Source: Chelativorans intermedius (GTDB taxonomy: Bacteria > Pseudomonadota > Alphaproteobacteria > Rhizobiales > Rhizobiaceae). From it: DNA of 64,000 nucleotides. The notes below the pieces were generated by a model. The model was given only the letters and a program-made list of their open reading frames with translations, was not told where the DNA came from and searched no databases. Positions 15,213 to 33,876 of this stretch are shown piece by piece. Each line of letters begins with the position of its first letter. Within the stretch, counting starts at the first letter, position 1. Location of the stretch: NCBI RefSeq assembly GCF_025398255.1, contig NZ_JAODNW010000021.1, positions 1 to 64,000 of the forward strand, in the 5' to 3' direction. Both the position numbers and the translations under genes were made by a program.

Positions 15213-15225
15213 CTTTTCCTGCTCC

Positions 15226-15438
15226 CTATTCCGTCTTGTTCTCGCCCTCGCCGCGCGGCTCATAGCCGACGAGGAAAACCCACGCGCAATAGGCGCCGAG
15301 CGCCGTGAACAGCATGCCCCAGAAGGGGCTGGCCATGACGAACTCGAAAATGCCCCAGCCGAGGCAGACCGCGATAATGGCCACCCTGCGCCACAGGGGC
15401 GCGAAGAACGGGTGGTGAAGATCGAGAAGCTTGTCCAT
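15226..15438 (-). CDS. Small two-helix membrane protein within the iol operon
   Basis: A 70-residue protein with two likely membrane helices (about 18-36, RVAIIAVCLGWGIFEFVMA, and 38-56, FWGMLFTALGAYCAWVFLV) and a charged tail EPRGEGENKTE. It resembles short DUF3329-type proteins common in rhizobia, recalled from memory and not searched. It lies between iolE and iolB, 14 bp before iolB, so it is probably cotranscribed with them. No role in inositol metabolism can be deduced. Confidence 0.7.
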   Translation of the reverse strand: MDKLLDLHHPFFAPLWRRVAIIAVCLGWGIFEFVMASPFWGMLFTALGAYCAWVFLVGYEPRGEGENKTE

Positions 15439-15458: not shown

Positions 15459-16358
15459 TCAGGCGCGGTCCAGCCCGACCGCGCGCGCCGCCTGGCGCAG
15501 CGCCTCAAGCCCCATCGACTGATACTTCACCGGATCGGCCTTCAGGGGGTCCTGTTCCGCCTCGATGACGAGCCAGCCCTCATAGCCGTGCTCGGCCAGC
15601 ACTTTGAGCACCGGCGCGAAGTCGATCTCGCCCTCGGGGTCGCCGGGAACGGTGAAGACACCGCGGCGCACGCCTTCGAGGAAGGAAAGGCCCTCCGCCT
15701 CCACCTGGCGGCGCACGGCGGGACGAATGTTCTTGGCGTGGAAGTGCTTCACCCGGTCCGCATAGGCGCGCGCCAGGTCGAGCGGATCGGCACCGCCGAA
15801 CCAGGCATGGCCGACATCGAGCAGAAGCTTGGTTGCCGGCCCCGTGCCGGCCATCAGGCGGTCGATCTCCTGGCGTGTCTGGACGACGGTGCCCATGTGG
15901 TGATGATAGACCAGGTGAATGCCCTGCTGCGCGCAGTAGGCGGCGATGGCCTCCACCCCGGCACAGAACTGCGGCCATTCCTCATGGGCAAGCACCGGCT
16001 TGTCGCGCAGCGCTACCCCGTCCCTGCCGTGAATGGCGTTCGACGTCTCGCAGACGATGCAGACCTCGCAGCCATTCGCCTTCAGCATGTCGAGATGCGG
16101 CTGGATGGCCCGCTTCTCGGTCTCGATGTCGTTGACGAGCAGGTTGAGCGAGTGCCAGCCGGAGACGAAGACGAGCCCGTGTTCGGCCAGAACATGCTTC
16201 AGCGTCTCGCCATCGGAGGGCATCTTGTGGCCCTTCTCGATACCGGCGAAGCCGATCTCTGCCGCCTCGCGCAGACACTGCTCCAGCGGAATGTGGGCGC
16301 CGATGGAATGGTCGTCGTCATTCGACCAGGCGATGGGGTTGGTGCCGTAGCGGATCAT
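15459..16358 (-). CDS. iolE: Myo-inosose-2 dehydratase
   Basis: Dehydrates 2-keto-myo-inositol (inosose) to a diketone, the second step of inositol catabolism. The 299-residue TIM-barrel protein belongs to the xylose isomerase-like superfamily. Start [16 protein letters not shown] and the metal-site segments [32 protein letters not shown] and [10 protein letters not shown] are typical of IolE. The ATG at 16358 directly abuts the iolD stop codon, so the two are coupled. Confidence 0.96.
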
Positions 16359-18182: not shown

Positions 18183-20098
18183 ACGGGCCTCCCATGTCTT
18201 GCGCAGGCGCGGTCCCAAACCGCGCACAGGGTGCGATAGTTGGCGGCCATGGCGGCGACGGCCTCGCCGTCCTCCATCTCGCCGGCAAGCCAGCGGCGCG
18301 CCGGCTCGGCAAAGATGGTGCGCCCCACGGCAAAGCCTTTCACGAGATCGAAGCCGGCGGCAACCGCAAAACTCTCCTCCAGCTCCTCCGCCGGCGCGTC
18401 GAGCCCGAGCACGACGATGCCGCGCGTGCGCGGATCGTTGCGGGAGATCGCCTGGCAGGCGTTTTCCCACGCCCGCGTGGAGGTCATCGGCTCCAGCTTC
18501 CACCAATCGGGATAGACGCCGATTTCGTAGAAGCGCTCGATGACCGCGGCGGCCGCCTGATCGTCGGCAGGGCGCACCTTGGAGGGGATGATCTCCAGCA
18601 GCATTTCCAGACGATTGCGGCGGGCGGCGGAGAAAAGCCTCTTGACCACGTCCTCCTGGCGCGCCTTCGTCTCGGCATCGTCATCGGGATGATAGAAGCA
18701 CAGCACCTTGACCACATGCTCCAGCGGCCACTCGACGAGGCCGCCGAAATCCGGGCCGATCTCCGGCTCCAGCGTCAGCGGGCGGGAGCCCGGCCACTCG
18801 ACGGGGCGGCCGATCCAGAGGCCGCTGGCGGCCGCCCGATAAAGCGCCTCGCGGCCAAGCCGTCCGTCGCACAGGATGCCGTAGCCGTGGCGGTCGCCGG
18901 CGACCTGCCTGGCCGCCTCCAGGCACAGCGTCTTGAAGGCGCCGATGCGCGAATGGGGAGCACCCAGGGCATCCGCCATCTCCTCAAGCTGCTTGCGATG
19001 GTCGAAAGCGAAGACGCGCATCTGCGGCCAGTGGCCCTTGCGGTTGGTCGCCCAGTGCACCTGTTCGAGCGCCTCGTCCTTGCGCAGCGCGCGGTTCCTG
19101 ATGCCGGTGCGGAAGAAATATTGCAGCTCCTCCCATGAGGGATAGGCCGGCGTGCAGCCATGGCGGGAGACGGCGAAAGCGCCGCAGGCATTGGCGTATT
19201 TGAGTGTCGTCGGCCAGTCCTCGCCCGAAAGCCAGCCCTTGAGAAGCCCGGCCATGAAGCCATCGCCGGCGCCCAGCACGTTGAAGACCTCGATGGGGAA
19301 ATGTTCGCCCGCCTCGCCCTCGTCGAGCGTGTCGGGAATGGCGCCGGCAAAGGCGGCAGCACCCATGGGGCCGCGCTTGCACACCAGCACGGCGTCGGTG
19401 ATGCGGCGCACGGCGCGCAGCGCCTCGATGGTGTCGGTCGAGCCGCCGGCGATGTGGAACTCCTCCTCCGTGCCGACGATGAGGTCGAAGAGCGGAAGCG
19501 TGGCCTGGAGCTTCGCCGTAACGCGCTCGGACTGGATGAAGCGGCTCTCGCCGGCATCGTGGCCGGCCAGGCCCCACAGATTGGGCCTGTAGTCGATGTC
19601 GAGTGCCGTCCTGGCGCCGCTTTCGCGGGCAAGCCGCAGCGCCTTCAACACCGCCGCCTCCGTGCGCGGATGGGAAAGGTGGGTCCCGGTGGCACACACG
19701 CAACGCGCCTCGGCGATGAAGGCGGGGTCGATGTCGTCCTCGCTGAGCGCCATGTCGGCGCAGTTCTCGCGATAGAAGATGAGGGGGAACTGCTCCTGGT
19801 CGCGGATGCCGAGAAGGACAAGCGCGGTGAGACGCTCGGGATCTGTCTTGACGCCGCGCACATCCACGCCCTCGCGCTCCAGCTCCTCGCGGATGAAGCG
19901 GCCCATGTGCTCGTCGCCCACACGGGTGATCAGCGCCGACTTCAGCCCCAGCCGCGCCGCGCCGGCGGCGATGTTGGTGGGCGAGCCGCCGATATACTTA
20001 TTGAAGGAGGCCATGTCCTCCAGCCGGCCGCCGATCTGGGCGCCGTAAAGATCGACCGACGAACGGCCGATGGTGATGACGTCGAGGGGCTTCGTCAC
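18179..20098 (-). CDS. iolC: Fused 5-dehydro-2-deoxygluconokinase with aldolase-like C-terminal domain
   Basis: Two domains in 639 residues. The first half (about 1-320) is a PfkB-type kinase that phosphorylates 2-deoxy-5-keto-D-gluconate; it has GGSPTNIAAGAARLG and the catalytic signature NVLGAGDGFMAGL. The second half (about 330-639) is the DUF2090 aldolase-like barrel seen fused to IolC in alphaproteobacteria (MRVFAFDHRKQLEEMA), which may replace a separate IolJ aldolase. I choose the GTG at 20098 because GGGAGG lies 6 nt upstream; an ATG at 20137 is in frame but lacks a Shine-Dalgarno and lies only about 20 nt after the likely transcription start. Confidence 0.93.
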   Translation of the reverse strand: MTKPLDVITIGRSSVDLYGAQIGGRLEDMASFNKYIGGSPTNIAAGAARLGLKSALITRVGDEHMGRFIREELEREGVDVRGVKTDPERLTALVLLGIRDQEQFPLIFYRENCADMALSEDDIDPAFIAEARCVCATGTHLSHPRTEAAVLKALRLARESGARTALDIDYRPNLWGLAGHDAGESRFIQSERVTAKLQATLPLFDLIVGTEEEFHIAGGSTDTIEALRAVRRITDAVLVCKRGPMGAAAFAGAIPDTLDEGEAGEHFPIEVFNVLGAGDGFMAGLLKGWLSGEDWPTTLKYANACGAFAVSRHGCTPAYPSWEELQYFFRTGIRNRALRKDEALEQVHWATNRKGHWPQMRVFAFDHRKQLEEMADALGAPHSRIGAFKTLCLEAARQVAGDRHGYGILCDGRLGREALYRAAASGLWIGRPVEWPGSRPLTLEPEIGPDFGGLVEWPLEHVVKVLCFYHPDDDAETKARQEDVVKRLFSAARRNRLEMLLEIIPSKVRPADDQAAAAVIERFYEIGVYPDWWKLEPMTSTRAWENACQAISRNDPRTRGIVVLGLDAPAEELEESFAVAAGFDLVKGFAVGRTIFAEPARRWLAGEMEDGEAVAAMAANYRTLCAVWDRACARHGRPV

Positions 20099-20155
20099 AT
20101 CACGCCTCCCTGCCCGGTTGCGCGCGCGGGCCGGCATGGCCGCGGGCGCGTCTCG

Positions 20156-20194: not shown

Positions 20195-21025
20195 TTATAT
20201 TCCATTTTGGCGCTCGCGATTGGCCGTGCCGACGGCCACCACCAATGCCACGGCGAGCGACAGCGTGGCCGAGAGCAGGCGGAAATCACCGAAATCCGCC
20301 TCCTGAACGGTGAGGAGAAGCGGCGTGACGGGGCGCAGTGGGCTGGCCAGCGAATCGGTGATGGCCACCACGGAGGCCCCGGCACGCGCGCCCGCCTCCG
20401 CCAGCGCCACGGTCTCCGCCGAATAGGGGGCGAAGGTGATGGCGATCACCGCGTCGCCGGCGCGGATGGCATGGTGGCTGTCAAGCTTGCCGACATGATC
20501 GTGCAGCATGGTGGGCACATTCATCTTCTCGAAGCCGTAGGCCAGGTAGGAGGCGACGGAGAAAGCGCGGCGGAGGCCCACGATGTGCACCATGCTGGCC
20601 TCGGACAATGCCTTGACGGCAACGTCGAGCGTGCGCGGGTCGATGGTGCGCGTCAGCGTTTCCAGCGACAGCCGGCCGGCCTCCACGAACTCGGCCAGCA
20701 GCGCCGAGGGGCTGCCTGCCCCGCTCTGGCGCAGCTTTTCCAGGCGGGTGGAATAGTCCGGCCATGCCGGGATGTAGGAGTCGCGGAACAGGCGCTGCAT
20801 CTGCGAGAACCCGGAAAAGCCCAGCACCTGGCAGAAGCGCATGAAGGCCGAGGGCTGAACGCCCGCCGCCTCCGCCATTTCGGCGACGGTGGAGACGGCG
20901 ATGCGGTCCGGGTTCGCCACCACATAGTCGGCGCATTGGCGCAGCCGCTTGGGCAGGCCGTCGGAGACCTCCATGATGCGATCGAGCAGTTCCTCGATGC
21001 TGGCCGGTGCCGAAACCGCGTCCAT
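20195..21025 (-). CDS. iolR: RpiR-family regulator of inositol catabolism
   Basis: A 276-residue repressor with an N-terminal RpiR helix-turn-helix (about 1-80: ISTVAEMAEAAGVQPSAFMRFCQ region) and a C-terminal SIS domain (about 130-260: HIVGLRRAFSVASYLAYGFEK, then DAVIAITFAPYSAETV) that senses a phosphosugar. Family knowledge says such IolR proteins repress iol genes until an intermediate binds. It lies between iolG and iolC on the same strand, and an IolR-type palindrome follows immediately in the iolC promoter. Confidence 0.9.
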   Translation of the reverse strand: MDAVSAPASIEELLDRIMEVSDGLPKRLRQCADYVVANPDRIAVSTVAEMAEAAGVQPSAFMRFCQVLGFSGFSQMQRLFRDSYIPAWPDYSTRLEKLRQSGAGSPSALLAEFVEAGRLSLETLTRTIDPRTLDVAVKALSEASMVHIVGLRRAFSVASYLAYGFEKMNVPTMLHDHVGKLDSHHAIRAGDAVIAITFAPYSAETVALAEAGARAGASVVAITDSLASPLRPVTPLLLTVQEADFGDFRLLSATLSLAVALVVAVGTANRERQNGI

Positions 21026-21085: not shown

Positions 21086-22090
21086 CTAACCCAGCACCTC
21101 GGCCACCTTTACCGCCCGGCCCTCCGCAAGCGAACGGTAGGCCGCATCGGCCAGCGCCAGCGCCTTCAAGCCGTCTTCGCCGCTGGGCGAAGGCGCCGCA
21201 CCGCCGGAGACGGCGGCGATGAAGGCGGCCATCTCGGCGGCATAGGCCTGGGTGTAGCGCGTCATGAAGAAGTCGTGCAGCGGCGGCTTCGTGAAGCCCT
21301 CGGCCGTGGCGATCTCGATGGAGACCGGCCGCTGGTTCTCGGCCGCGACGGCGCCCTTCTCGCCCAGCACCTCGATGCGCTGGTCGTAGCCATAGGTGGC
21401 GCGGCGCGAATTCGAGATGGCGCAATGTTTGCCCGATGCGGTGGTAAGCACCACGGAAACGCTGTCATGGTCGCCGAGGGCGCCGATTTCCGGGTCGACA
21501 AGCACCGAGGCGGTGGCAAACACCGTCTCCGGCTCCTCGCCCAGCAGGAAGCGGGCCATGTCGAAATCGTGGATCGTCATGTCGCGCAGGATGCCGCCGG
21601 AGGAGCGGATATAGGTGGCCGGCGGCGGGCCGGGATCGCGCGAGGTGATCTGCACCATCTCCACCTTGCCGATCCGGCCCTCGTCGATGGCCGCGCGCAC
21701 GGCCGCGAAATGGGCGTCGAAGCGCCGGTTGAAACCGACCATGAGGGTGGCGCCCGTCTCCTCCACCACCTTCAGGCAGGCCCTGACCCGACCGAGATCG
21801 AGGTCGATCGGCTTCTCGCAGAATACCGCCTTGCCGGCCCGCGCGAAACGCTCGATCAGGTCGGCATGGGTGTCGGTGGGAGTGCAGATCACCACGGCAT
21901 CGACATCGCCCGCCTTCTCGATCTCCTCGATGCTGCGCACCTGGCAGCCATAGGTGTCGGCGATGGCCTGAGCGGCCTCGGCAAAGGCGTCGGCGACGGC
22001 GACAAGTGCGGCATCGCGGTTGCCGGCAATCGCCTGGGCGTGCACCTTGCCGATGCGTCCGGCGCCCAGAAGTGCGAATCTTACGGTCAT
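21086..22090 (-). CDS. iolG: Myo-inositol 2-dehydrogenase
   Basis: Oxidises myo-inositol to 2-keto-myo-inositol with NAD+, the entry step of the pathway. The 334-residue Gfo/Idh/MocA protein has the nucleotide-binding LLGAGRIGKVHA at the N-terminus and the catalytic-Lys motif FCEKPIDLD near residue 95. The inositol-dehydrogenase-like DMTIHDFDMARFLLGEEP follows around residue 175. GGAAGAA precedes the ATG. Gene order places it between the SDR/ABC genes and iolR. Specificity for myo- over scyllo-inositol is inferred from the cluster. Confidence 0.93.
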   Translation of the reverse strand: MTVRFALLGAGRIGKVHAQAIAGNRDAALVAVADAFAEAAQAIADTYGCQVRSIEEIEKAGDVDAVVICTPTDTHADLIERFARAGKAVFCEKPIDLDLGRVRACLKVVEETGATLMVGFNRRFDAHFAAVRAAIDEGRIGKVEMVQITSRDPGPPPATYIRSSGGILRDMTIHDFDMARFLLGEEPETVFATASVLVDPEIGALGDHDSVSVVLTTASGKHCAISNSRRATYGYDQRIEVLGEKGAVAAENQRPVSIEIATAEGFTKPPLHDFFMTRYTQAYAAEMAAFIAAVSGGAAPSPSGEDGLKALALADAAYRSLAEGRAVKVAEVLG

Positions 22091-22140: not shown

Positions 22141-22944
22141 CTATTCGGGATAGGCACCGGCGACGTTCTGGTCGCAGTCGATGATGGCGCCCGTCAACAC
22201 GCCCGAGCGCGGCGACAGAAGGTAGGTGGCAAGCGGTGCCACCTGCGCCGGCTTGACGAGCTGCCCGAAGGGTTGGGCCGCCTCTGCCTTCTCCAGCCAG
22301 TCGTCGGGTGCATTGTGAAAGCGCTTCTGGGTGGCATCCTCGCCGGGCGTGTCCATCCAGCCGCAGGCGATGGCATTGCAGCGTATGCGGTCATGGCGAT
22401 GGGCCTGCGCGGTGTTCTTGGTGATGTTGGCAAGCGCCGCCTTGGACGCCGAATAGGGCGCCAGATAGGACTGGCCGCAGTGAATGACCATGGACACGAT
22501 GTTGACGATCGAAGCCGGGATGCGGTGATCGAGCGCCTGGCGCACGAATGCCTGCATGGTGAAGAAGGGGCCGCGCGCATTCACGTCCATCAGCCTGGCC
22601 CAGACCTGCGGCGTCGTGTCGAGCAGGCTTCCCCGGTCGCAGGAGGCCGCCGCATTGACCAGCGCATCGAGCGGGCCGAGCAGCGCCACCGCACGGTCGA
22701 TCAGCATGCGGCAATCCTCGACGTCGGCCACGTCGGCGGCGACGAAATGCGCGTTGCCGCCCAGCGCCTTCAGCGCGGCAACGGCCTGCTCTCCCTTCGC
22801 CGGGTCGCGACCGGCAAGGACGACGCCCTCGCAACCTTCCCGCACGAGCTGCCGTGCGATGGCGAAACCCAACCCCTGAGTTCCCCCCGTGATGACGGCA
22901 TGCCGGGCCGCACCTTCCGTGTCTGCGCGGTCCTGCGGCATCAT
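22141..22944 (-). CDS. Short-chain dehydrogenase/reductase
   Basis: A 267-residue SDR with cofactor motif ITGGTQGLGFAIA near residue 18 and catalytic YSASK preceded by Ser in NIVSMVIH. Asp in ADVADVED fits an NAD+-using classical SDR. Its start overlaps the stop of the ABC ATPase gene by four bases and it is followed by iolG, so it probably oxidises a polyol or inositol derivative brought in by that importer. The precise substrate is unknown. A second ATG directly upstream (MMPQ) makes the start uncertain by one codon. Confidence 0.88.
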   Translation of the reverse strand: MMPQDRADTEGAARHAVITGGTQGLGFAIARQLVREGCEGVVLAGRDPAKGEQAVAALKALGGNAHFVAADVADVEDCRMLIDRAVALLGPLDALVNAAASCDRGSLLDTTPQVWARLMDVNARGPFFTMQAFVRQALDHRIPASIVNIVSMVIHCGQSYLAPYSASKAALANITKNTAQAHRHDRIRCNAIACGWMDTPGEDATQKRFHNAPDDWLEKAEAAQPFGQLVKPAQVAPLATYLLSPRSGVLTGAIIDCDQNVAGAYPE

Positions 22945-23714
22945 GCGGCGTCCTGATACTCGGCGCCGGTCTTGGCGCCGGTGATGTAGGCCACGACGTC
23001 CTGGGGATCCGTCTCCTGCTTGTTGAGGTTGGCCACGATGCGGCCGCGGCGGAAGACGACGATTCGGTCCACCAGATCGAAGACCTGGCGCATGTTATGG
23101 CTGATGAGAATGAGCGGCTCGCCGGTCTCCTTCAGGGTGCGGATGATGTTCTCGACCTGCGCCGTCTCCTGAACGCCGAGCGCCGCCGTCGGCTCGTCCA
23201 TGATCGTCAGCTTGGAGTGGAAGGTGGCGGTGCGCGCGATGGCCACGCATTGGCGCTGTCCGCCGGACATGTTGCGGATCTTGTTGCGGATGTTGGGTAT
23301 CTTCACCGCCGTGCGCTCCAGCCCGCGCAGGGTGGCCTCCCGCATGGCCCGATAGTCGAGAATGGAGAAGGGGCCGAGGTTGAACAGCGTCTTCTCGCGC
23401 CCCAGGAACAGGTTGTCCGGCACGTCGAGATCGTCGGCGAGCGCCAGCGTCTGGAAGACGGTTTCGATACCGGCTTCGCGCGCGTCGATCGGCCCGGAAA
23501 ACTGGCGGGGAATCCCGTCGAAGATGATCTGGCCGCGGGTGGGCTGCTCGACGCCGGTGATCTGGCGCACGAAGGTGGACTTTCCGGCGCCGTTGTCGCC
23601 CATGATGGCAACATGCTCGCCGCGCCGCAGGATGAAGTTGGCGCCTTCCAGCGCATGGACACCGCCATAGTGCTTGGTCAGGTCGCGGGTCTCCAGAATG
23701 ACGTCGTCGCTCAT
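22941..23714 (-). CDS. Sugar/polyol ABC importer, ATP-binding subunit
   Basis: A 257-residue ABC ATPase with Walker A GDNGAGKST, signature MSGGQR, Walker B LTIMDEPTAALG and switch His in LILISHNM. It is a single-domain CUT2-type ATPase like FrcA, not the double-domain RbsA form. It works with the permease and binding protein upstream. From context the cargo is an inositol or O-methyl inositol; rhizobial inositol importers belong to this class. GGAGG precedes the ATG, and the gene lies 13 bp after the permease. Confidence 0.92.
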   Translation of the reverse strand: MSDDVILETRDLTKHYGGVHALEGANFILRRGEHVAIMGDNGAGKSTFVRQITGVEQPTRGQIIFDGIPRQFSGPIDAREAGIETVFQTLALADDLDVPDNLFLGREKTLFNLGPFSILDYRAMREATLRGLERTAVKIPNIRNKIRNMSGGQRQCVAIARTATFHSKLTIMDEPTAALGVQETAQVENIIRTLKETGEPLILISHNMRQVFDLVDRIVVFRRGRIVANLNKQETDPQDVVAYITGAKTGAEYQDAA

Positions 23715-23727
23715 AGTCTCCTCCCTG

Positions 23728-24807
23728 CTAGCGTTGCGAAGCGAAGCGCTGGCGATACTGATCGAGCACCACGGCGCCGACGATGATCGCGCCCTTCACC
23801 ATCTCCTGATAGTAGGCGTCGAGCCTGAGGAAGGTGAAGCCGGAGATGATGACGCCGAAGATCAGCGCGCCGAGCACCGTGCCGACGACGGAGCCGCGCC
23901 CGCCGGAAAGCGAGACGCCGCCGATGACGGCCATGGCGATGGCGTCGAGCTCGTACATGACGCCCATGCCGGCCTGGGCCGTCAGGTTCTTGGAGCTGAG
24001 GACCAGGGCGGCCAGGGCAGCCAGCATGCCCGCAATCACATAGACCAGCACCTTGTGACGGGCGACCTTGATGCCCGACATGCGCGCGGCATCCTCGTTG
24101 GAGCCGATGGCATAGGTGTGCTTGCCATAGACCGTGTATTTCAGGATGAGCTGAAACAGGATCGCAAGTCCCACGAAGATGAACACCGGCATCCAGCCGC
24201 CAAGCCCGTTTCCGATCATCGCGTAGCTGTCGGTGGGAAAGGAGATCGGCTGGCCCTTGGACCACCACTTGGCAACGCCGCGCGCCGTGACCATCATGCC
24301 GAGGGTGGCGATGAACGGGGGAATGCGCGTATAGGCGATCAGAAGGCCGTTGATCAGGCCCGCCACCAGACCGCAGGCAAGCCCCACCACCACCGGCACG
24401 ATGACCGGCAGATCCATGAAGGCAGGGCCGAAGACCGCCTTCGGATTGGGATGCCCGTTGACCTCCGCCACCTGTGCGAAACTCATGGCGATCATCGCGG
24501 TGGCGCCGACGACCGAACCGGAGGACAGGTCGATGCCGCCGGAGATGATCACCTGCGTCACGCCAATGGCGATGATGCCGACGATCGAAACCTGGAGGAT
24601 GATGATGTAGAGGCGCTGCTCGTTGAAGATGCTGCCGAAGCGGCCCTGCGTGTCGAACAGGAAGCTCTGGCCCATCAACAGGGCGCCCAGCACCTCGAAG
24701 ATCAAGACGATCAACACCAGCGCGCCGAATATGTTCAATTCGTTCGGCCACACCCGCCTCGAGGCGTCGAAGGTCAGGCCGCCGGTGCCATGAGTGGTCT
24801 CGGACAT
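23728..24807 (-). CDS. Sugar/polyol ABC importer, permease (CUT2)
   Basis: A 359-residue permease of the RbsC/FrcC type with about ten hydrophobic segments. Recognisable CUT2 sequences are GVTQVIISGGIDLSSGSVVGA near residue 85 and the later GINVARHKVLVYVIAG-like stretch followed by MYELDAIAMAVIGGVSLSGG. It pairs with the ATPase 13 bp downstream and the binding protein upstream, forming one importer. A strong hairpin with a T-run separates it from the binding-protein gene. Confidence 0.92.
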   Translation of the reverse strand: MSETTHGTGGLTFDASRRVWPNELNIFGALVLIVLIFEVLGALLMGQSFLFDTQGRFGSIFNEQRLYIIILQVSIVGIIAIGVTQVIISGGIDLSSGSVVGATAMIAMSFAQVAEVNGHPNPKAVFGPAFMDLPVIVPVVVGLACGLVAGLINGLLIAYTRIPPFIATLGMMVTARGVAKWWSKGQPISFPTDSYAMIGNGLGGWMPVFIFVGLAILFQLILKYTVYGKHTYAIGSNEDAARMSGIKVARHKVLVYVIAGMLAALAALVLSSKNLTAQAGMGVMYELDAIAMAVIGGVSLSGGRGSVVGTVLGALIFGVIISGFTFLRLDAYYQEMVKGAIIVGAVVLDQYRQRFASQR

Positions 24808-24917: not shown

Positions 24918-25862
24918 TCAGTTCTTTGCGAGGTAGTCGTCGATATTGGCCGGCGTGACCAGCTCGAAGGGGATGTAGACCTTCTGCGCCACATCCTCTC
25001 CCCGCGCCAGCTTCAGCGCCGTATCGACGGCACCCCTGCCCTGACCGGCGGCGTTCTGGAAGACCGTCACGTCAAGGTCGCCCTCGCGCATGGCAACCAG
25101 CGCGTCCTGCGTGGCATCGACGCCGGTGACCACGACATCCTCCATCGAAATGCCGGACGCCTTCATGGCCTGAATGGCGCCGATGGCCATCTCGTCATTG
25201 TTGGAGAACACGCCGTCGAACTGTGTGCCGGAGGACAGCCAGTTGGTCATCAGGTCCTGCGCCTCGTCGCGCGACCAGTTGGCCGTCTGCTCGTCGATGA
25301 CGTTGATGAAGCTGCACATGTCCATGGCAAGCACGTCATGGAAGTCCTTGGTACGCTGAACGGCGGCCTGGTTGGAGAGCTCGCCCATCATGATGTAGAT
25401 GTTGGCGCCCTCGCTCTTGCCCATGCTGCGCAGGAGCTTGCAGCCCTCGAACGCGGCAAGCGTGCCGGATTCGATCTCGTTGGAAGCGACGAAAGCCTGG
25501 TTCTCCGGCAGGCTGTCGACATTGATCGGCTGGCGGTTAACATAGACCAGCGGCACACCGGCAGACGCGGCGGCATTGGTCATCGCCTCGGTCGCGGAGG
25601 TGTCCACCGGGTTGACGATGATCGCATCGACGCCGGAAGCGATGAAATTGTTGATCTGATCGAGCTGCTTGGCGACGTCGTTCTGCGCGTCTTCAACCTG
25701 CAGATCGACGCCTTCGAGCTCGTCGGCGTATTCGATCATGCCATTGCGCAGAACGGTCAGGAAGTTGTCGTCGAACAGTGCCATCGTGACGCCGATGGTC
25801 TCGGCCATGGCCGAGGTCGTCATCAGCGCCGATACGGCAACACCCATAATAAGCTTCTTCAT
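24918..25862 (-). CDS. Periplasmic sugar-binding protein of the ABC importer
   Basis: A 314-residue periplasmic-binding protein type 1 (RbsB/FrcB/MocB-like). Residues about 1-21 are a signal peptide (KKLIMGVAVSALMTTSAMA). The mature part has the family pattern TMALFDDNFLTVLRNGM, ASGVDAIIVNPVD and FSNNDEMAIGAIQAMKASG. The ATG at 25862 has GGAGGAG upstream. It is the first gene of the importer operon. Likely ligands from context are inositols, methyl inositols or rhizopine; the known rhizopine-binding protein MocB belongs to this family. Confidence 0.92.
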   Translation of the reverse strand: MKKLIMGVAVSALMTTSAMAETIGVTMALFDDNFLTVLRNGMIEYADELEGVDLQVEDAQNDVAKQLDQINNFIASGVDAIIVNPVDTSATEAMTNAAASAGVPLVYVNRQPINVDSLPENQAFVASNEIESGTLAAFEGCKLLRSMGKSEGANIYIMMGELSNQAAVQRTKDFHDVLAMDMCSFINVIDEQTANWSRDEAQDLMTNWLSSGTQFDGVFSNNDEMAIGAIQAMKASGISMEDVVVTGVDATQDALVAMREGDLDVTVFQNAAGQGRGAVDTALKLARGEDVAQKVYIPFELVTPANIDDYLAKN

Positions 25863-26070
25863 GAGACTTGCTCCTCCACACGAGGGGTGTCCGGCAGCAC
25901 CCTTCATTATGCCGGAAATCCCGAACACGGGAATTCTCCCGACGCCTGCGGCAGCCGCTCCCCGGGCTTTCGGCCCATGCCGCCCCTCCCGAAATAGAAC
26001 GTCACCACCGTTTCGGCGTCCATAATGAAATATCTATTCTATTTTTTGCTCCGGCGTCAAGCGCCTTCGA

Positions 26071-26904
26071 TCACGCCGCGCGGCGGCGCACGCGCTCGCA
26101 GACCAGCGCCATGCTGTCGGCGAGCGCGCGCCGCAGATCCGGCGCCCGGTGCACCGTTTCTGAGAACGGCTCGAAGGAAAGCGGGCCGGCATAGCCGGCG
26201 GCACGCAGCGCGGCGACCTGGCCCACATTGTCCAGCCGGTCCTGATCATCGACGAGCACGCGATGGCCATCGCGCATCACCGCCCTGCCGAGGCTGCCAT
26301 CGGTAACGCCGGAAAGATGAACCAGCCCCGTATGGGCGGGGAAAAACGCGCTCTCGCCGGCCACGAAGTGGTGAAAGGTGTCGTGCACGAGGCGGAATGT
26401 TCCGCCCAGGCCAAGCGATTCGATCGCCTCCACGGCCTCGCTCTTGTGGCGCAGCGAGCAGCTCTCGAAGCCCAGCGGCTCGACGAGGCCGACGATGCCC
26501 GCCTCGGCGAGCAGGGGCGCCAGCGCCTTGAGCGCGATGCGCAGATTGGCCTGGCGCTCGCCATTGGCGCGGCCCGTGCCATCATTGGTGGGCACCAGGA
26601 CGAGCGCCTGCGCGCCACATGCCCTGGCCTGGCCGATCAGCGCCCTGGCCTCCCGCTCGCGCACGCCGTCCCAGGCGTTGAAGCGCTGCAGGGCATTGAT
26701 GGAGAAGATGTGCAGGCCCCGTGCCGCGGCGGCGCGCCCGACGTCCGCCGGGTCCGTGCCGTCGGCAAGCGCGTTGCCTTCGATGTCGTTGCGGATCTCC
26801 ACGCCTTCCGCGCCGAGCGCCTGGGCAAGATCCAGAAAATCGGATACCGAAAGCTGCGGCGCGCACATATGGTTGAGCGCAAAAACAGGGCTGTTCTCGG
26901 ACAT
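26071..26904 (-). CDS. iolI: Sugar isomerase/epimerase, IolI-like
   Basis: A 277-residue TIM-barrel protein of the xylose isomerase-like superfamily that resembles IolI (inosose isomerase). The start region FALNHMCAPQLSVSDFLDLAQALGAEGVEIRND and the metal-site segments GLVEPLGFESCSLR, RLVHDTFHHF, GLVHLSGV and LSFEPFS fit. IolI interconverts 2-keto-myo-inositol and 1-keto-D-chiro-inositol, so it would let chiro-inositol (for example from demethylated pinitol) enter the pathway. The ATG at 26904 follows AGGAAAGG. Name and activity rest on family resemblance and context. Confidence 0.8.
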   Translation of the reverse strand: MSENSPVFALNHMCAPQLSVSDFLDLAQALGAEGVEIRNDIEGNALADGTDPADVGRAAAARGLHIFSINALQRFNAWDGVREREARALIGQARACGAQALVLVPTNDGTGRANGERQANLRIALKALAPLLAEAGIVGLVEPLGFESCSLRHKSEAVEAIESLGLGGTFRLVHDTFHHFVAGESAFFPAHTGLVHLSGVTDGSLGRAVMRDGHRVLVDDQDRLDNVGQVAALRAAGYAGPLSFEPFSETVHRAPDLRRALADSMALVCERVRRRAA

Positions 26905-26936
26905 TCGTGCCTTTCCTCCATGCGGCGCGCAGGCGC

Positions 26937-26949
26937 CATTCATGGAATG
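26937..26949. promoter_or_regulatory. Palindrome just upstream of the iolI-like gene
   Basis: CATTC-ATG-GAATG, 33-45 bp before the start codon. It shares the CATTCATG core with the larger palindrome at 26988-27011; the two may be sites for the same regulator. Confidence 0.35.
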
Positions 26950-27042: not shown

Positions 27043-28074
27043 TCAAAGACTTTCCGGCACATAGAGCACCGGCGGCAGGAAGAGCTGGCCCGGCGTTTCC
27101 GAAGGGCCGTTGCGCACCGCACTTGCCATATGCTCCATCAACGACCGGCAGAGCGCGCCCAGAGGGGTGGCGATGGCGGCAACGATCAGATGTTCCTGCA
27201 GGGCGGTGGAGGAGTCGGGGGTGAGCTCGTTGACCACGACCGCCGGCAGAGGGTCACGCGTCTCCTCGCGCAAGGCGCTGATGGCGCCTTCCATGCCGCC
27301 GCCCGCGACATAGAAGCCGGCGATGTCGGGATGCCGGTCGAGCAGGTTCAGCGTGGCCTCGTGGGTGACCTGCCGCGTTTCCAGATTGACCAGCGTCTCC
27401 AGAATCTCGAATCCCGGGGCGTATTCGCGGAAATAGCTGCGAAAGCCGGTCTCGCGCAGCTCGTGCCCGTGCCAGCGGTGGCTGCCGACGAAGATGGCCA
27501 CCTTGCCGACGCGCGGCGCGGTGCGCGAGATGAACCAGGCGGCGGTGCGCCCCACCTTGAGATTGTTGAGGCCGACATAGCTCTCGCGCACGCCCTGGGC
27601 AAAATCCGACAGCAGGGAGAAGACCGGCTTGCCCTCCCCCTTCAACGCCTCCACCGCCTGCGTGACCGAGTGGTGATCCAGGCTGGTTGCGGCAATCGCC
27701 TGCGTCCTCTGCCCGAGCGCCGCCAGCCGCTCCACCACCTCGGCGGGCGTCTGGTGCTTCACATATTCGATGTGAGCGCGCACGCGCATGCCGGGCATCG
27801 CATCCGCCGCCTCCTGCAACGCCCTGCCGAACGCCTTATAGAATGGCTGGCTCTCCTTCTGCAGCAGGAAGCCGAAGTCCATCTGCGGCAGGTCCTGGGT
27901 GAGCCGCCGGTGGATGAGCGCCGCGGCGTGATAGCCGATCTCGCTGGCCGCCTCGTAGACGCGGCGCGCCGTCTCCTCGCGCACCCGGTGCCGGCCATTG
28001 AGAACACGATCCACCGTGGCCACGCTGACGCCGGCCGTCCTTGCTACGTCTGCGATGGTCGGACGCTTGCCCAT
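27043..28074 (-). CDS. LacI-family transcriptional regulator (inositol locus)
   Basis: A 343-residue repressor with the LacI headpiece at the N-terminus (RPTIADVARTAGVSVATVDRVLNGRHRVREETARRV in pieces: TIADVARTAGVSVATVDRVL) and a periplasmic-binding-protein-like effector domain. VATVDRVL instead of the usual VATVSRVL is typical of a subgroup regulating inositol and rhizopine genes, where MocR-neighbour regulators look alike. It is divergent from the mocD-like operon with 137 bp between them and heads the minus-strand inositol gene set, so it could control both. Confidence 0.9.
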   Translation of the reverse strand: MGKRPTIADVARTAGVSVATVDRVLNGRHRVREETARRVYEAASEIGYHAAALIHRRLTQDLPQMDFGFLLQKESQPFYKAFGRALQEAADAMPGMRVRAHIEYVKHQTPAEVVERLAALGQRTQAIAATSLDHHSVTQAVEALKGEGKPVFSLLSDFAQGVRESYVGLNNLKVGRTAAWFISRTAPRVGKVAIFVGSHRWHGHELRETGFRSYFREYAPGFEILETLVNLETRQVTHEATLNLLDRHPDIAGFYVAGGGMEGAISALREETRDPLPAVVVNELTPDSSTALQEHLIVAAIATPLGALCRSLMEHMASAVRNGPSETPGQLFLPPVLYVPESL

Positions 28075-28211: not shown

Positions 28212-29300
28212 ATGGGCAAGCGCAACTACAGCCTGATCGGCCCGGACGCCAGGCGCGCCGTGGAGACCGGCCTCGCCTCGGCCGAATGGTACCACACGGA
28301 TGTTCCGCGCAAGGAGATGAAGGCGCTGATGAAGCGCAGCGACGGCCCGGCCATTCGCGACACCATCGTCTGGCTGGGCAGCATGGCGGCCCTTGCCGGC
28401 GTCGCCGTTTGGCTATGGCCTTCTGCCTGGTCGATCCCCTTCTTCCTGGCCTATGGCGTGCTCTATGGCTCGGCAGGAGACTCGCGCTGGCACGAATGCG
28501 GGCACGGCACCGCGTTCAAGACGCGCTGGATGAACGACGCGGTCTACCAGATCGCCTCCTTCTTCATGATGCGCAATCCCGTCACGTGGCGCTGGAGCCA
28601 TGCCCGCCACCACACCGACACCATCATCGTCGGGCGCGACCCCGAGATCGCGGTGATGCGGCCGCCGGACCTGCTGCGCCTGATCCTCAACTTCTTCGGA
28701 ATCATCGACCTGTGGCACGCGACCATCGACATGCTGCGCAACGCCGCCGGCGTGGTGAGCGCCGAGGAGAAGACCTTCATTCCCGAGCAGGAGCAGCCCA
28801 AGGTGGTGCGCATCGCCCGCATCTGGCTGGCGATCTATGCAGCCACCGCCGCGACGGCCGTCTATACGGGCTCGATCCTGCCCTTCCTGCTGATCGGCGG
28901 CCCGCGCCTCTATGGCGCCTGGCACCACGTGATGACCGGCCTGCTGCAGCATGGCGGGCTGGCGGACAACGTGACCGACCATCGGCTCAACAGCCGTACG
29001 GTCTACATGAACCCCATCAGCCGATTCATCTATTGGAACATGAACTACCATGTGGAGCATCACATGTTTCCCATGGTGCCCTACCATGCGCTGCCCCGGC
29101 TGCACGAGCTGATCAAGCACGACCTGCCGGCGCCGAACACCTCGATCCTCGACGGCTATCGTGAGATGATCCCCGCCTTCCTGCGGCAGCTGCGCTACGA
29201 GGATTACTTCATCAAGCGCGCATTGCCGCCGACCGCGAAGCCCTACCGGGCCGAGTTCCACGAGGTGGCGCCGCAGGCGGCAGCGGCGGCAGCAGAATAG
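28212..29300 (+). CDS. mocD: MocD-like membrane diiron oxygenase (fatty-acid desaturase family)
   Basis: A 362-residue membrane protein of the desaturase/alkane hydroxylase superfamily with three histidine boxes: HECGH (94-98), HARHH (130-134) and HVEHH (280-284), which hold a diiron centre. Hydrophobic segments around 52-88 and 203-235 anchor it. Together with a Rieske ferredoxin and a reductase directly downstream it matches the rhizobial MocD-MocE-MocF set linked to rhizopine (O-methyl-scyllo-inosamine) use, where oxidative O-demethylation is the proposed step. The ATG at 28212 lies about 10 nt after GGAGGAG. A lipid desaturase is the alternative, but the context argues against it. Confidence 0.85.
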   Translation: MGKRNYSLIGPDARRAVETGLASAEWYHTDVPRKEMKALMKRSDGPAIRDTIVWLGSMAALAGVAVWLWPSAWSIPFFLAYGVLYGSAGDSRWHECGHGTAFKTRWMNDAVYQIASFFMMRNPVTWRWSHARHHTDTIIVGRDPEIAVMRPPDLLRLILNFFGIIDLWHATIDMLRNAAGVVSAEEKTFIPEQEQPKVVRIARIWLAIYAATAATAVYTGSILPFLLIGGPRLYGAWHHVMTGLLQHGGLADNVTDHRLNSRTVYMNPISRFIYWNMNYHVEHHMFPMVPYHALPRLHELIKHDLPAPNTSILDGYREMIPAFLRQLRYEDYFIKRALPPTAKPYRAEFHEVAPQAAAAAAE

Positions 29301-29325
29301 AACGGAAATTCCAAGGGAGGTCTCC

Positions 29326-29640
29326 ATGGCGCGTTGGGTTGAAGCGTGCGGCGTCGAGGATGTGGACGAGGAGGACCTGATCCGGTTCGACCACGAGGGC
29401 AGAACCTATGCGATCTATCGCAGCCCGGACGACGAGTTCTATGCCACGGACGGAATCTGCACCCATGAACATGCCTTCCTCTCCGACGGGCTGGTGATGG
29501 ACTACATCATCGAATGTCCGAAGCACAATGGCCGCTTCGACTACCGCACGGGCGAGGCCAAGGGGGCGCCGGTGTGCGTCAACCTGAGGACCTATCCGGT
29601 GAAGGTGGAAGACGGCCGCGTGTTCATCGATCTGGGCTGA
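29326..29640 (+). CDS. mocE: Rieske [2Fe-2S] ferredoxin, MocE-like
   Basis: A 104-residue soluble Rieske protein with CTH at 45-47 and CPKH at 64-67, the complete Cys-X-His and Cys-X2-His ligand set. It has no oxygenase alpha domain, so it is an electron carrier. It lies between the diiron oxygenase (25 bp upstream) and a flavin ferredoxin reductase (7 bp downstream), and should pass electrons from the reductase to the oxygenase. AGGGAGG precedes the ATG. Confidence 0.93.
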   Translation: MARWVEACGVEDVDEEDLIRFDHEGRTYAIYRSPDDEFYATDGICTHEHAFLSDGLVMDYIIECPKHNGRFDYRTGEAKGAPVCVNLRTYPVKVEDGRVFIDLG

Positions 29641-29647
29641 CGCGGCG

Positions 29648-30841
29648 ATGGGCGACATCGTGATCATCGGCGCCGGCGAATGCGGCGTGCGGGCCGCCTT
29701 CGCACTGCGCGAGGCGGGCCATGACGGCGCCATCCTGCTCGTCGGCGAGGAGCCGCACCTGCCCTATGAACGCCCGCCCCTTTCCAAGAACTGCCCCGTG
29801 GCGGCCAAGCCCATCGCCGAGGAAGCCCGGTATGCACAGGCGCAGATCGAGCTTCTGCAGGCCAGCCGGGCGGAAGCGATCGACCGGGCGGCGAAGCGGG
29901 TGCATCTGGCGGATGGCCGCAGCCTGGTCTACGACAAGCTGCTGCTGGCCACGGGCGCGCGGGCGCGGCGCTTTCCCGGCATGGAGGCGGCGCTGACCCT
30001 GCGCAGTCTCGACGACGCACACGCCATACTGGAGGCGCTCGGCCCGGGGCTGAAGCTTGCGATTGTCGGCGGCGGCTTCATCGGGCTGGAGCTTGCGGCC
30101 ACGGCGCGGGGTCGGGGCGCGGCAGTGACGGTGATCGAAGCGGCCCCCCGGCCGATGGCGCGCATCGTGCCGGGCGAGATCGCCGAGGCGGTCGCCGCGC
30201 GGCACCGGGCGGCGGGGGTGGAGCTGATCCTCGGGACAGGTGTGACGCAGGTGCGCGAGGACGGCGTTGCGCTGAGCGACGGGCGCACGATCGACGCCGA
30301 CATGGTGGTGGCCGGCGTTGGCGCGGCACCGGAAACGCGGCTTGCCGAGGCGGCGGGCCTGAAGGTCGACAACGGCATCCTGGTCGATGGCCGGCTGGCC
30401 ACCAGCGATCCGCACATCTTCGCCGCCGGCGATTGCTGCCGCTTTCCTTTCGACGGGCGGCTGGTGCGCCTGGAAAGCTGGCGCGCCGCGCAGGACCAGG
30501 GAACGCATGCCGCCCGCGCCATGCTGGGCAGCCAGGAGCGATATGCCAGCCCGCCCTGGTTCTGGTCCGACCAGTACGACCTCACGCTGCAGGTGGCGGG
30601 CCTGCCCGACCCGGCGCGCACCCATGTGCGGCGGGCGCTCGGCGACGGTGCCTTCGTGCTGTTCGAGCTCGACGATGCGGGCCGGCTCGCGGCGGCCAGC
30701 GGCATTGGAATCGGCAACGCTGTGGCGAAGGACATCCGGCTTGCCGAGATGATGATCGAGAAGGGGCTGCGGCCCGATCCGGCACGGCTTGCCGATCCGG
30801 CCGTCAATCTGAAGACGCTCTTGAAGGAGGAGACGGCATGA
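29648..30841 (+). CDS. mocF: NAD(P)H-ferredoxin reductase (FAD), MocF-like
   Basis: A 397-residue FAD-dependent reductase of the type serving Rieske and putidaredoxin-like ferredoxins. It has an FAD motif VIIGAGECGVRAA at the N-terminus, then LPYERPPLSK, an NAD motif IVGGGFIGLELAATARGRG near residue 140, and IFAAGDCCRFP near residue 260. C-terminal domain is typical of the family. It completes a three-component electron chain with the two upstream genes. Its TGA overlaps the next ATG by four bases. Confidence 0.92.
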   Translation: MGDIVIIGAGECGVRAAFALREAGHDGAILLVGEEPHLPYERPPLSKNCPVAAKPIAEEARYAQAQIELLQASRAEAIDRAAKRVHLADGRSLVYDKLLLATGARARRFPGMEAALTLRSLDDAHAILEALGPGLKLAIVGGGFIGLELAATARGRGAAVTVIEAAPRPMARIVPGEIAEAVAARHRAAGVELILGTGVTQVREDGVALSDGRTIDADMVVAGVGAAPETRLAEAAGLKVDNGILVDGRLATSDPHIFAAGDCCRFPFDGRLVRLESWRAAQDQGTHAARAMLGSQERYASPPWFWSDQYDLTLQVAGLPDPARTHVRRALGDGAFVLFELDDAGRLAAASGIGIGNAVAKDIRLAEMMIEKGLRPDPARLADPAVNLKTLLKEETA

Positions 30842-31650
30842 AGCGGCCGAACCGCAAGACGATCGCCGAGCTGCGCGCGCTCAGGGGCGAGCGCCAGCTC
30901 GCAATGCTGCGCGTGGAGACGCTGGAGGAAGCGGAAGCCGCCGAGCGGGCCGGCATCGACATGGTCTCCGTGCCGCCCGAGCTGATGCTCGAAACGGCCT
31001 TCCGCGAGGCGGCGCCGACGGTGTTCGCCATCCCGGGCGTCAACTTCTTCGAGGTGGGCACCAGCGACGACTTCGTCCGCTGGGCCTTCCGCCTCTACAA
31101 GGCCGGTGCGGATGCCGTCTACTGCTCGGCAGGCACGCGCACCATCCGGCAGCTTGCCGAGGAGGGCATTCCCGTGTGCGGCCATGTCGGCCTCATTCCT
31201 TCCAAGGCGACGTGGACGGGCGGCTTCCGCGCCGTCGGCAAGACGCTCGAAACCGCCCAGCTCGTCTGGCGGCAGGTCAAGGCGCTGGAAGAGGCGGGCG
31301 CCTTCGCCGCCGAGATCGAGGTGGTGCCGGAGGCCATCGCCACGGAGATCGCCAGCCGGACTTCGCTCTTCATGATCTCCATGGGGGCGGGGGCGGGCTG
31401 CGACGCGCAGTATCTCTTCTCCGACGACGTGCTGGGCGCCAACACCGGCCATGTGCCGCGCCACGCCAAGACCTATCGCAACTTCGCCGCCGAATATGCG
31501 CGCCTGCAGGAGGAACGGGTGAGCGCCTATCGCGAGTTCGCCGATGATGTGCGCTCCGGCGCCTATCCCGAAACCGGCCACAAGGTGGCGGTGGAGGAGG
31601 AGACGCTTGCGCGCTTCCGCGATTGGCTCGAAAAACAGCCGCCGGCGTGA
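30838..31650 (+). CDS. PanB-like protein lacking the metal-binding residues
   Basis: A 270-residue protein that aligns along its length with ketopantoate hydroxymethyltransferase (PanB), the enzyme that transfers a one-carbon unit from 5,10-methylene-tetrahydrofolate. Conserved parts are VCGHVGLIPS, the catalytic-Glu region AAEIEVVPEA and GAGAGCDAQYLFSDDVLG. But by eye all three Mg ligands of E. coli PanB are changed: VGDS reads SVPPE, LADLPF reads FAIPGV and KIEGG reads YCSAG. It is therefore unlikely to make ketopantoate. It is coupled to the reductase gene and followed by purU, so a role in handling the C1 unit or a ring product is plausible. Confidence 0.82.
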   Translation: MKRPNRKTIAELRALRGERQLAMLRVETLEEAEAAERAGIDMVSVPPELMLETAFREAAPTVFAIPGVNFFEVGTSDDFVRWAFRLYKAGADAVYCSAGTRTIRQLAEEGIPVCGHVGLIPSKATWTGGFRAVGKTLETAQLVWRQVKALEEAGAFAAEIEVVPEAIATEIASRTSLFMISMGAGAGCDAQYLFSDDVLGANTGHVPRHAKTYRNFAAEYARLQEERVSAYREFADDVRSGAYPETGHKVAVEEETLARFRDWLEKQPPA

Positions 31651-31705
31651 AGCCGCCCGCCGGCGTTTGCCCCGTCCGTTCCCAAAATCCGATCAAGGCC
31701 AGCCG

Positions 31706-32566
31706 ATGAGTGAGAAGAGCTTCGACATCAATATCTCCTGCGAGGACCGGCCCGGCATCGTCGCCGCCGTGACGCGGGAGCTTGCCGGGCTCGGCGCCAA
31801 CATCGCCGAATCCAACCAGTTCTGGGACCGGCAGACCAACCGCTTCTTCATGCGGATCTCCTTCACCGTTCCCGAGGCGGTGGACCGCGGGCGCATCGAA
31901 CGCGCGCTGGAGCCGGCCATTGCCCGCTTCGACATGAAGACGCGGCTTGCCGACCGCTCGCGCCGCCCGAAGATCATCATCATGGTCTCGAAATTCGACC
32001 ACGCGCTCCTCCACCTGCTCTACCAGATCCGCGTCGGCTGGCTGGATGCGCAGGTCGCGGCCATCGTCTCCAACCATGAGGATTCGCGCGGGACCGCCGA
32101 GGCAGAGAACATTCCCTACCACTGCTGGCCGGTGAACAGGCAGAACAAGGCCGAACAGGAGGAGCGGCTGCTCAAGCTGGTGCAGGAGACGGAGGCCGAT
32201 CTCGTCATCCTCGCGCGCTACATGCAGGTGCTTTCCGACCAGCTTTCCAACCGCCTGTTCGGCAAGGTCATCAACATCCACCACTCCTTCCTGCCGAGCT
32301 TCAAGGGCGCCAAGCCCTACCACCAGGCGCATGAGCGCGGGGTGAAGCTCATCGGCGCCACCGCACACTATGTGACGCCCGACCTCGACGAGGGCCCGAT
32401 CATCGAGCAGGAGACGGAGCGCGTGACCCACGCCATGAGCGTCGAGGACTTCATCGCCGCCGGCCGCGACATCGAGAGCCGCGTGCTTGCGCGCGCCGTC
32501 AAGCTGCACCTGGAAAATCGCGTGATGCTGAACGGGCATAAGACCGTGGTCTTTGCCAAGGGGTGA
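31706..32566 (+). CDS. purU: Formyltetrahydrofolate deformylase
   Basis: Hydrolyses 10-formyl-tetrahydrofolate to formate and free tetrahydrofolate. The 286-residue protein has an N-terminal ACT domain (about 5-85: NISCEDRPGIVAAVTREL) and a formyltransferase-fold catalytic domain with the Asn-His-Asp set in KVINIHHSFLPSFKG and DLDEGPIIEQ. PurU commonly sits beside demethylases that load tetrahydrofolate with C1 units; here it ends the mocD-mocE-mocF-like gene set. It starts 55 bp after the PanB-like gene. Confidence 0.95.
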   Translation: MSEKSFDINISCEDRPGIVAAVTRELAGLGANIAESNQFWDRQTNRFFMRISFTVPEAVDRGRIERALEPAIARFDMKTRLADRSRRPKIIIMVSKFDHALLHLLYQIRVGWLDAQVAAIVSNHEDSRGTAEAENIPYHCWPVNRQNKAEQEERLLKLVQETEADLVILARYMQVLSDQLSNRLFGKVINIHHSFLPSFKGAKPYHQAHERGVKLIGATAHYVTPDLDEGPIIEQETERVTHAMSVEDFIAAGRDIESRVLARAVKLHLENRVMLNGHKTVVFAKG

Positions 32567-33775: not shown

Positions 33776-33862
33776 TGTCCGTATATTGTTCGAGTCGCGA
33801 AAAAAATATTTGATGGAGGCGGAAAAATGGTTGACACTTATGTCATCCCAAATCAAGCTATA

Positions 33863-33876
33863 TGTAATCGATTACA
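33863..33876. promoter_or_regulatory. LacI-type operator O1
   Basis: Perfect 14-bp palindrome TGTAATCGATTACA with a central CG, as usual for LacI-family sites. It overlaps the putative -35 (33872-33877) of the importer promoter. Confidence 0.85.

Follow-up and report, generated by a model that had tools for sequence, protein, structure and literature searches.

In the model that Bahar is said to have put forward in 1998, rhizopine use combines a ferredoxin oxygenase complex, encoded by mocDEF, with the inositol pathway. How rhizobia and their relatives open methylated inositols has, to our knowledge, only been sketched so far. Here, we analyze a window of 64,000 nucleotides from Chelativorans intermedius (positions 1 to 64,000 of contig NZ_JAODNW010000021.1, assembly GCF_025398255.1), in which mocD, mocE, mocF, a panB-like gene and purU lie divergent from a LacI-type regulator gene and a block for inositol transport and catabolism (iol). 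The five genes probably constitute a moc-type operon for the demethylation of a methyl-inositol that would feed the adjacent iol operon, and the newer part of the locus is its PanB-like protein, for which we coin the label PanBL. Legume root exudates can contain methylated inositols such as pinitol as major solutes (PMC5789663).

The closest described relatives are the mocDEF rhizopine genes of Rhizobium leguminosarum and Sinorhizobium meliloti L5-30, which likewise comprise a membrane oxygenase, a Rieske ferredoxin and a reductase and depend on the inositol pathway (PMC5789663, PMC10107442). Unlike those systems, the one described here comes without a rhizopine-binding protein above cut-off, has a LacI rather than a MocR regulator beside mocD, and carries panB-like and purU in addition. 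FixV-type LacI genes and mocDEF are arranged divergently in several rhizobia, and in R. etli and R. leguminosarum a PF01261 gene lies behind the LacI gene; an inositol derivative has been inferred for these fixV/msi360 - msi119 - mocDEF clusters (PMC3538637). The LacI, TIM-barrel and mocDEF arrangement of the clusters equals that of the window, where, in contrast to them, an iol operon and purU are joined to it; the LacI protein of the window resembles the FixV-type regulators in its position. The idea of demethylation is therefore not new, as mocDEF and an inositol derivative had been connected in print. The preliminary description of this DNA had considered the five-gene combination undescribed; the arrangement of LacI, TIM barrel and mocDEF is in print (PMC3538637). 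For the combination of moc genes with panB-like and purU our literature search found no account, but it covered open-licence papers only and is weak evidence of absence; the text of PMC3538637 has 0 mentions of panB or hydroxymethyltransferase, with figure 2 not covered and purU not searched there. The purU-mabO-folD operon of pAO1 nicotine catabolism is similar in that demethylation is followed by passage of the one-carbon (C1) unit, as methylene-tetrahydrofolate (methylene-THF), through FolD and PurU (PMC3891541). There, however, the demethylating oxidase itself yields methylene-THF, whereas the oxygenase of the present locus would be expected to produce formaldehyde; the locus also differs in having a PanB-fold protein and in lacking folD, which is found elsewhere in the genome. 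The mocC and mocD of PMC6341043 are mannopine genes, a clash of names without bearing here.

The five genes are co-directional, with gaps of 25, 7, -4 and 55 bases from mocD through to purU, the start of panB-like overlapping the stop of mocF (ATGA), and the LacI gene starts 137 bases from mocD on the opposite strand. In these respects the locus is real, as first described, and tightly packed, and the assigned families agree with domain and model searches (Table 1), including the diiron membrane oxygenase with three His boxes; MocE has the Rieske C-H/C-H motif. The arrangement is not due to chance, since Nitratireductor sp. ZSWI3 has a syntenic block with all five genes (68-87% identity), and so has Chelativorans sp. 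YIM 93263 with four of the five (74-89%, with no purU match within the stretch covered). MocDEF likely demethylates an inositol ether, and our best guess for the substrate is a methylated inositol such as pinitol, ononitol or a similar compound. Earlier, uptake and demethylation of an O-methyl inositol followed by entry into the iol pathway had been proposed, with rhizopine among the candidates. In agreement with that proposal, the MocDEF-type oxygenase is accompanied by genes for inositol uptake and by the complete set of iol genes (iolG, iolE, iolD, iolB and iolC/J, all above their own cut-offs); rhizopine is the part that we consider unlikely.

Which methylated inositol is used? The mocDEF genes are named for rhizopine use, and the S. 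meliloti L5-30 mocD promoter is rhizopine-inducible, as tested in Azorhizobium with a receiver plasmid (PMC10107442). That rhizopine (3-O-methyl-scyllo-inosamine) is the substrate here is nonetheless quite improbable. No protein of the genome reaches the 420-bit cut-off of the rhizopine-binding protein model (NF052284), the best scoring 53.3 bits and the binding protein of the window 38.8 bits, and a methylated inositol such as pinitol therefore fits better. Among 297 genomes of the family, seven encode a rhizopine-binding protein above cut-off, and MocD or PanBL is found at 0 of these 7 loci within the 14-20 kb stretches covered; published rhizopine loci with mocDEF beside mocB (PMC10107442) are outside the loci examined here. 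On these two grounds, the binding-protein model and the family loci, we judged rhizopine less likely. Genome G105 speaks the other way (L and G numbers are labels of the loci and genomes compared here): about 169-206 kb along its contig C76 (L174, L208, L237), mocDEF, iolBEDC and a rhizopine-binding protein above cut-off occur within ~37 kb, mocDEF being ~35 kb from the binding-protein gene. In R. mesoamericanum, mocDEF homologues are up 1.5-2.1-fold on Mimosa root exudate, of which pinitol is the most concentrated listed component, while the authors favor rhizopine (PMC5789663).

Two further readings concern the oxygenase and its substrate. An O-methyl sugar other than inositol is suggested by a second locus type in Mesorhizobium, which pairs MocD-MocE-PanBL with DUF4432 and another transporter, yet such a substrate is unlikely for the window, given its iolG, full iol operon and inositol-type binding protein. 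The latter protein matches PDB entry 4yo7 with 214.7 bits and the next entry with 133.9, 80 bits apart, and 4yo7 we take to be a structure holding myo-inositol (an AlphaFold model of the binding protein from its single sequence, with mean pLDDT 47.9, was not used). MocD could instead be a lipid desaturase or hydroxylase with the iol genes as coincidental neighbors, as its PF00487 membership and weak DesA/DesB model matches, far below cut-off, might indicate. We rejected this reading on the neighborhood and regard it as very improbable: sugar-type transport and dehydrogenase genes recur around MocD, and among ten neighbor representatives scanned the only fatty-acid-type matches were the alternative oxygenases themselves.

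PanBL was previously recognized as PanB-like, which is right, but was not assigned a particular function; comparison across loci points to the handling of formaldehyde. The AlphaFold model, built with 36 sequences 59-85% identical to that of the window (L113, a short open frame, was left out), has a mean pLDDT of 89.8 and is weak at 124-127. It has the fold of PanB, ketopantoate hydroxymethyltransferase: its best PDB matches are PanBs (top 3vav; E 4.8e-19, TM 0.6-0.7), with isocitrate-lyase-type proteins as the next fold family far behind at 7e-8, though parts do not all superpose on the PanB chains (rmsd 13-15 Å for most, 4.4 Å for 1oy0). PanBL fails the PanB family models, scoring 114.6 vs 207.55 bits with TIGR00222 and 133.9 vs 272 bits with NF001452.

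What PanBL keeps and loses of the PanB active site suggests how it may work. Residues D45, S46, D84, K112 and E114 of E. coli PanB, which we take to form the ketoacid and Mg site, are kept in 0 of 116 PanBL sequences: the D45-S46 loop is missing in all 116, D84 is replaced by G, A or S in every one, Y stands in place of K112 in 112 and K in none, and E114 is never E. His136 is kept in 116 and Glu181 in 115, so that PanBL resembles PanB in fold and in the His136/Glu181 part of the active site. The set was obtained from 118 sequences by removing two identical ones, and excludes those with <37% identity, <235 aligned residues or in-frame stops as well as L086-L090; nine further sequences (L192-L200) agree, 0 of 9 keeping the ketoacid/Mg residues. 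A canonical PanB is encoded separately in the genome, on contig C27, with all seven residues present, and for this reason and the lost ketoacid residues we rejected PanBL as a second pantothenate enzyme. The metal of PanB is reported to catalyze enol formation of the ketoacid (PMC7770189), and in Pseudomonas putida J5 panB is said to be involved in nicotine use, explained by pantothenate (PMC3891541). A PanB without its ketoacid/Mg half would not be expected to form ketopantoate by the usual route; it may still exchange formaldehyde with THF.

The neighbors of PanBL point in the same direction. By models built here, 59 PanBL loci have MocD alone (37), a PF04116-type (fatty-acid-hydroxylase-type) oxygenase alone (10), both (2), a Rieske oxygenase (2) or none of these (8), so that MocD is near PanBL in 39, and a different oxygenase is near in 13 others, one of them weakly placed. 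Pfam finds PF04116 in four of four such partner proteins scanned and PF00848 in the Rieske oxygenases of L084 and L195. Among the eight unlabelled loci, L082 has a PhyH dioxygenase on the same strand as PanBL, L064 and L070 lie at contig edges, and L085 holds a partial gene. Traced by parsimony on a quick PanBL tree with 53 leaves, the oxygenase label switches no fewer than 8 times, whereas shuffled labels averaged 12.2 changes, with 8 as their lowest count; three of the 8 changes are single Rieske or PhyH leaves. Labels hence cluster on the tree but switch; the tree excludes the partial L085, the count also excludes six loci labelled as having none, and branch support was not weighed. Nor is the sugar constant, because in L196 (genome G310, 7584-12185) the gene after MocD-MocE-MocF-PanBL encodes an OpuAC quaternary-amine binding protein and an amino acid permease is encoded close by; this locus is possibly an N-demethylation version. 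What most PanBL loci have in common is an oxygenase that could release formaldehyde. Since the partner oxygenase families vary and formaldehyde would be their shared product, PanBL may handle formaldehyde, which is the best reading of the comparative data, though we give it an even chance of being correct; that PanBL acts on the C1 unit at all is just as evenly balanced.

More tentatively, PanBL could be a dedicated formaldehyde:tetrahydrofolate condensing enzyme that arose from PanB by loss of the ketoacid half, a C1-capture part that demethylating oxygenases from two or even four unrelated families would share, chiefly among Alphaproteobacteria. It would be the THF counterpart of Fae, the formaldehyde-activating enzyme of methylotrophs, which it resembles in the proposed loading of formaldehyde onto a folate-type carrier; Fae differs in using tetrahydromethanopterin, and the likeness is one of proposed job (PMC539335). 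At the threshold used, PanBL occurs in 19 of 398 genomes of the phylum, all in the class of the window, and one named PanBL locus, L094, is labelled as a beta-proteobacterial metagenome bin.

PanBL might alternatively act on the carbon skeleton, as an aldol, retro-aldol or isomerase enzyme on a sugar or inosose, while MocDEF demethylates a methylated inositol. Such a role would account for the usual company of PanBL, which is sugar ABC transporters, Gfo/Idh dehydrogenases and PF01261 isomerases. We think it rather unlikely, as the sugar genes vary by locus (IolG/TIM1, Gfo10/TIM12/DUF4432, a PfkB kinase in L082) whereas an oxygenase is usually retained, L196 has its quaternary-amine binding protein, L084 has a Rieske oxygenase but, as far as its genes were searched or scanned, no sugar transporter, and the ketoacid/Mg site on which an aldol step would draw is lost.

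How tightly are PanBL, MocD and PurU associated? Among the best 80 of 578 confirmed stretches, which we call the named loci and in which some gene misses are contig ends, MocD is found in 75, MocE in 73, MocF in 39 and purU in 11. The five-gene module is present in the window as had been proposed, but it is not what is conserved across loci; the commoner unit is MocD-MocE-PanBL with a transporter. In 297 genomes of the order, we find 51 PanBL genes (at least 38% identity, one partial) in 31 genomes, 34 of them with MocD within 10 kb, and 55 MocD genes (at least 55% identity) in 41 genomes, 32 of them with PanBL within 10 kb and 31 on the same strand; 26 genomes have both. These pairings come from best-match lists, and weaker unlisted PanBL matches have <45% identity over part of the protein.

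PurU itself is the only full-length copy in the genome (the sole match above cut-off), and folD is a single gene elsewhere, on C27. Across 159 MocD or PanBL loci, purU occurs in 14, seven at 75-87% identity, one at 69.9% and six at 50-55%, of which L039 and L114 may be one locus sampled twice. Compared with a background of ~0.2% per 20 kb, estimated from 24 copies in 61 genomes, it recurs above background beside moc genes in Nitratireductor, Devosia and Mesorhizobium records. Its frequency in the named loci and in the MocD or PanBL loci led us to reject PurU as an indispensable component; it is recurrent but minor there. FolD-PurU drains are known in demethylation (PMC3891541, PMC8235418), and the earlier assignment of purU to C1 disposal agrees with these routes. 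On balance we lean toward PurU draining the C1 unit in this locus as well. L184 has MocD-MocF-PurU without a panB-like gene.

A number of observations count against the C1 route that we favor. The residue comparison was anchored on only two canonical PanBs, with the D45-S46 loop in the weakest-aligned part, and many PanBL loci are close relatives rather than independent cases. PanBL is missing from the 10 kb around 23 of the 55 MocD genes (20 of these 23 were examined in locus context), and 15 of the 41 MocD genomes have none at the threshold used, so that PanBL is not essential. No oxygenase was recognized near full PanBL genes in L069, L076, L079 and L200 with Pfam on one to four neighbors, nor near the partial gene of L085, where none was scanned, and the Rieske oxygenase of L195 lies 3 kb off PanBL on the other strand, giving weak support. 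Near the 159 MocD or PanBL loci folD is found in 0, so that a folD-purU operon is not seen there. A Nitratireductor rhodophyticola plasmid (L204) has the same inositol locus with mocDEF-purU and no panB-like gene, and mocDEF loci linked to iol genes in G136, G209, G244 and G105 have no PanBL match within 10 kb of MocD (G209 ends at a contig edge). The condensation of formaldehyde with THF is apparently nonenzymatic in M. extorquens (PMC539335). Finally, the genome encodes a glutathione-dependent formaldehyde dehydrogenase (601.3 bits, cut-off 543.95).

Together with L191, a MocD locus without PanBL that carries an FrmA relative, the FrmA-type dehydrogenase of the genome and the MocD genes without PanBL give some weight to a rival in which formaldehyde leaves by the glutathione route, purU is a housekeeping gene that came to lie downstream by chance, and PanBL has a minor or protective, folate-binding function. 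The single full-length purU of the genome and the rarity of purU in the loci compared would suit this rival too. That purU turns up next to moc genes more often than the background would predict, in Nitratireductor, Devosia and Mesorhizobium, argues against it, and we hold it to be about as doubtful as the role on the carbon skeleton. The FrmA-type relative in L191 (15746-16882) is 61% identical.

The route that we favor, an inducible module for use of an O-methylated inositol in which PanBL loads formaldehyde onto THF and PurU releases formate, is the best overall explanation available, and may equally well prove right or wrong as a whole. Gene content, synteny, family membership, residue loss and the repeated linkage of PanBL to oxygenases are observed; the substrate, the demethylation and the reaction of PanBL are inferred, as follows. 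The module would be induced and an O-methylated inositol (pinitol, ononitol or similar) imported by the ABC transporter. MocF and then MocE would relay electrons from NADH to MocD, and this membrane diiron oxygenase would hydroxylate the O-methyl group to a hemiacetal that breaks up into free inositol and formaldehyde. IolG, the short-chain dehydrogenase and the TIM-barrel protein would convert the inositol to an inosose, entering the IolE-D-B-C/J steps. PanBL would help to load formaldehyde onto THF, the half-reaction of PanB that has no need for a ketoacid; housekeeping FolD would then oxidize the product to 10-formyl-THF, from which PurU would release formate and free THF.

If PanBL captures formaldehyde on THF, the step called apparently nonenzymatic in a methylotroph (PMC539335) can have an enzyme. 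Of 258 matching plasmid records 40 were listed, and 16 of these 40 give PanBL the annotation ketopantoate hydroxymethyltransferase, which would be wrong in those 16 if the C1 reading is true.

Turning to the divergent block, the inositol locus headed by the LacI gene, initially counted as thirteen genes, has 12 (28074 down to 14403). The true start of iolD is probably inside its listed open reading frame, which overlaps iolC.

Table 1. Features of the moc locus and of the divergent inositol block in the window.
Feature	Coordinates	Strand	Support
mocD, membrane diiron oxygenase, fatty-acid-desaturase family	28212..29300	+	PF00487 121.4 bits; His boxes HECGH 94, HARHH 130, HVEHH 280
mocE, MocE-family Rieske [2Fe-2S] ferredoxin	29326..29640	+	TIGR02377 182.3 bits, cut-off 136.15
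mocF, FAD/NAD(P) ferredoxin reductase	29648..30841	+	PF07992 and PF14759; nearest NCBIfam models are dioxygenase ferredoxin reductases, below cut-off
panB-like (PanBL), PanB fold without ketoacid/Mg site; proposed formaldehyde-tetrahydrofolate step	30838..31650	+	PF02548 149.5 bits; fails TIGR00222
purU, 10-formyl-tetrahydrofolate deformylase	31706..32566	+	TIGR00655 334.4 bits, cut-off 285.95
LacI-family regulator, divergent from mocD	27043..28074	-	PF00356 and PF13407
TIM-barrel isomerase/epimerase-like protein	26071..26943	-	PF01261 77.9 bits; best PDB 2q02, 4hgx
Sugar-type periplasmic binding protein, probably inositol-type ligand	24918..25928	-	PF13407; best PDB 4yo7
Sugar ABC transporter permease	23728..24807	-	PF02653
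Sugar ABC transporter ATPase	22941..23714	-	PF00005
Short-chain dehydrogenase (SDR)	22141..22944	-	NF004847 358.8 bits, cut-off 240
iolG, inositol 2-dehydrogenase	21086..22090	-	TIGR04380 424.7 bits, cut-off 355
RpiR-type regulator, presumably of the iol operon	20195..21025	-	below-cut-off matches to HexR/MurR models
iolC-iolJ fusion, 5-dehydro-2-deoxygluconokinase / aldolase	18179..20137	-	NF047869 730.1 bits, cut-off 600
iolD	16359..18506	-	TIGR04377 933.5 bits, cut-off 715, matched from residue 113
iolE	15459..16358	-	TIGR04379 366.9 bits, cut-off 290
iolB	14403..15263	-	TIGR04378 330.8 bits, cut-off 205

Of the 80 named loci, 44 include a LacI relative within their stretch, mostly beside mocD, and iolG relatives of at least 71% identity are in 10 of the 80. 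RpiR-iolCDEB lies ~3-31 kb from mocDEF, mostly on one side, in four of 19 further extended loci (the four iol-linked ones named above). This linkage agrees with the earlier proposal for mocDEF; PanBL has no match within 10 kb of MocD in any of those four. Among the loci examined, PanBL is directly joined to an iol operon only in this window; a weaker case is L054, where PanBL occurs with weaker iolC and iolD relatives.

Other PanBL loci differ in composition. A PF04116-type oxygenase replaces MocD in L060, L071-L075, L077, L078, L083 and L199, with MocE in all but L075, and these loci apparently represent a second, unstudied demethylase class. The second Mesorhizobium locus type (L099, L103-L107, L109, L114, L122, L125, L127) combines MocD-MocE-PanBL and DUF4432 and, if the contig extends far enough, also includes another Gfo/Idh enzyme, TIM barrel and transporter; purU follows in L114, L122, L125 and L127. 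This type probably serves another O-methyl sugar.

Downstream of the moc genes, the window holds a second sugar cluster (32738-46183) that comprises a LacI gene on the minus strand, a glycerol-phosphate/maltose-type ABC transporter and two each of IolE-like TIM barrels and Gfo/Idh-type dehydrogenases, the last TIM/Gfo pair being 85-88% identical in Chelativorans L092, the YIM 93263 locus. It is followed at 46793-50915 by a fused TRAP permease and a TAXI-type binding protein.

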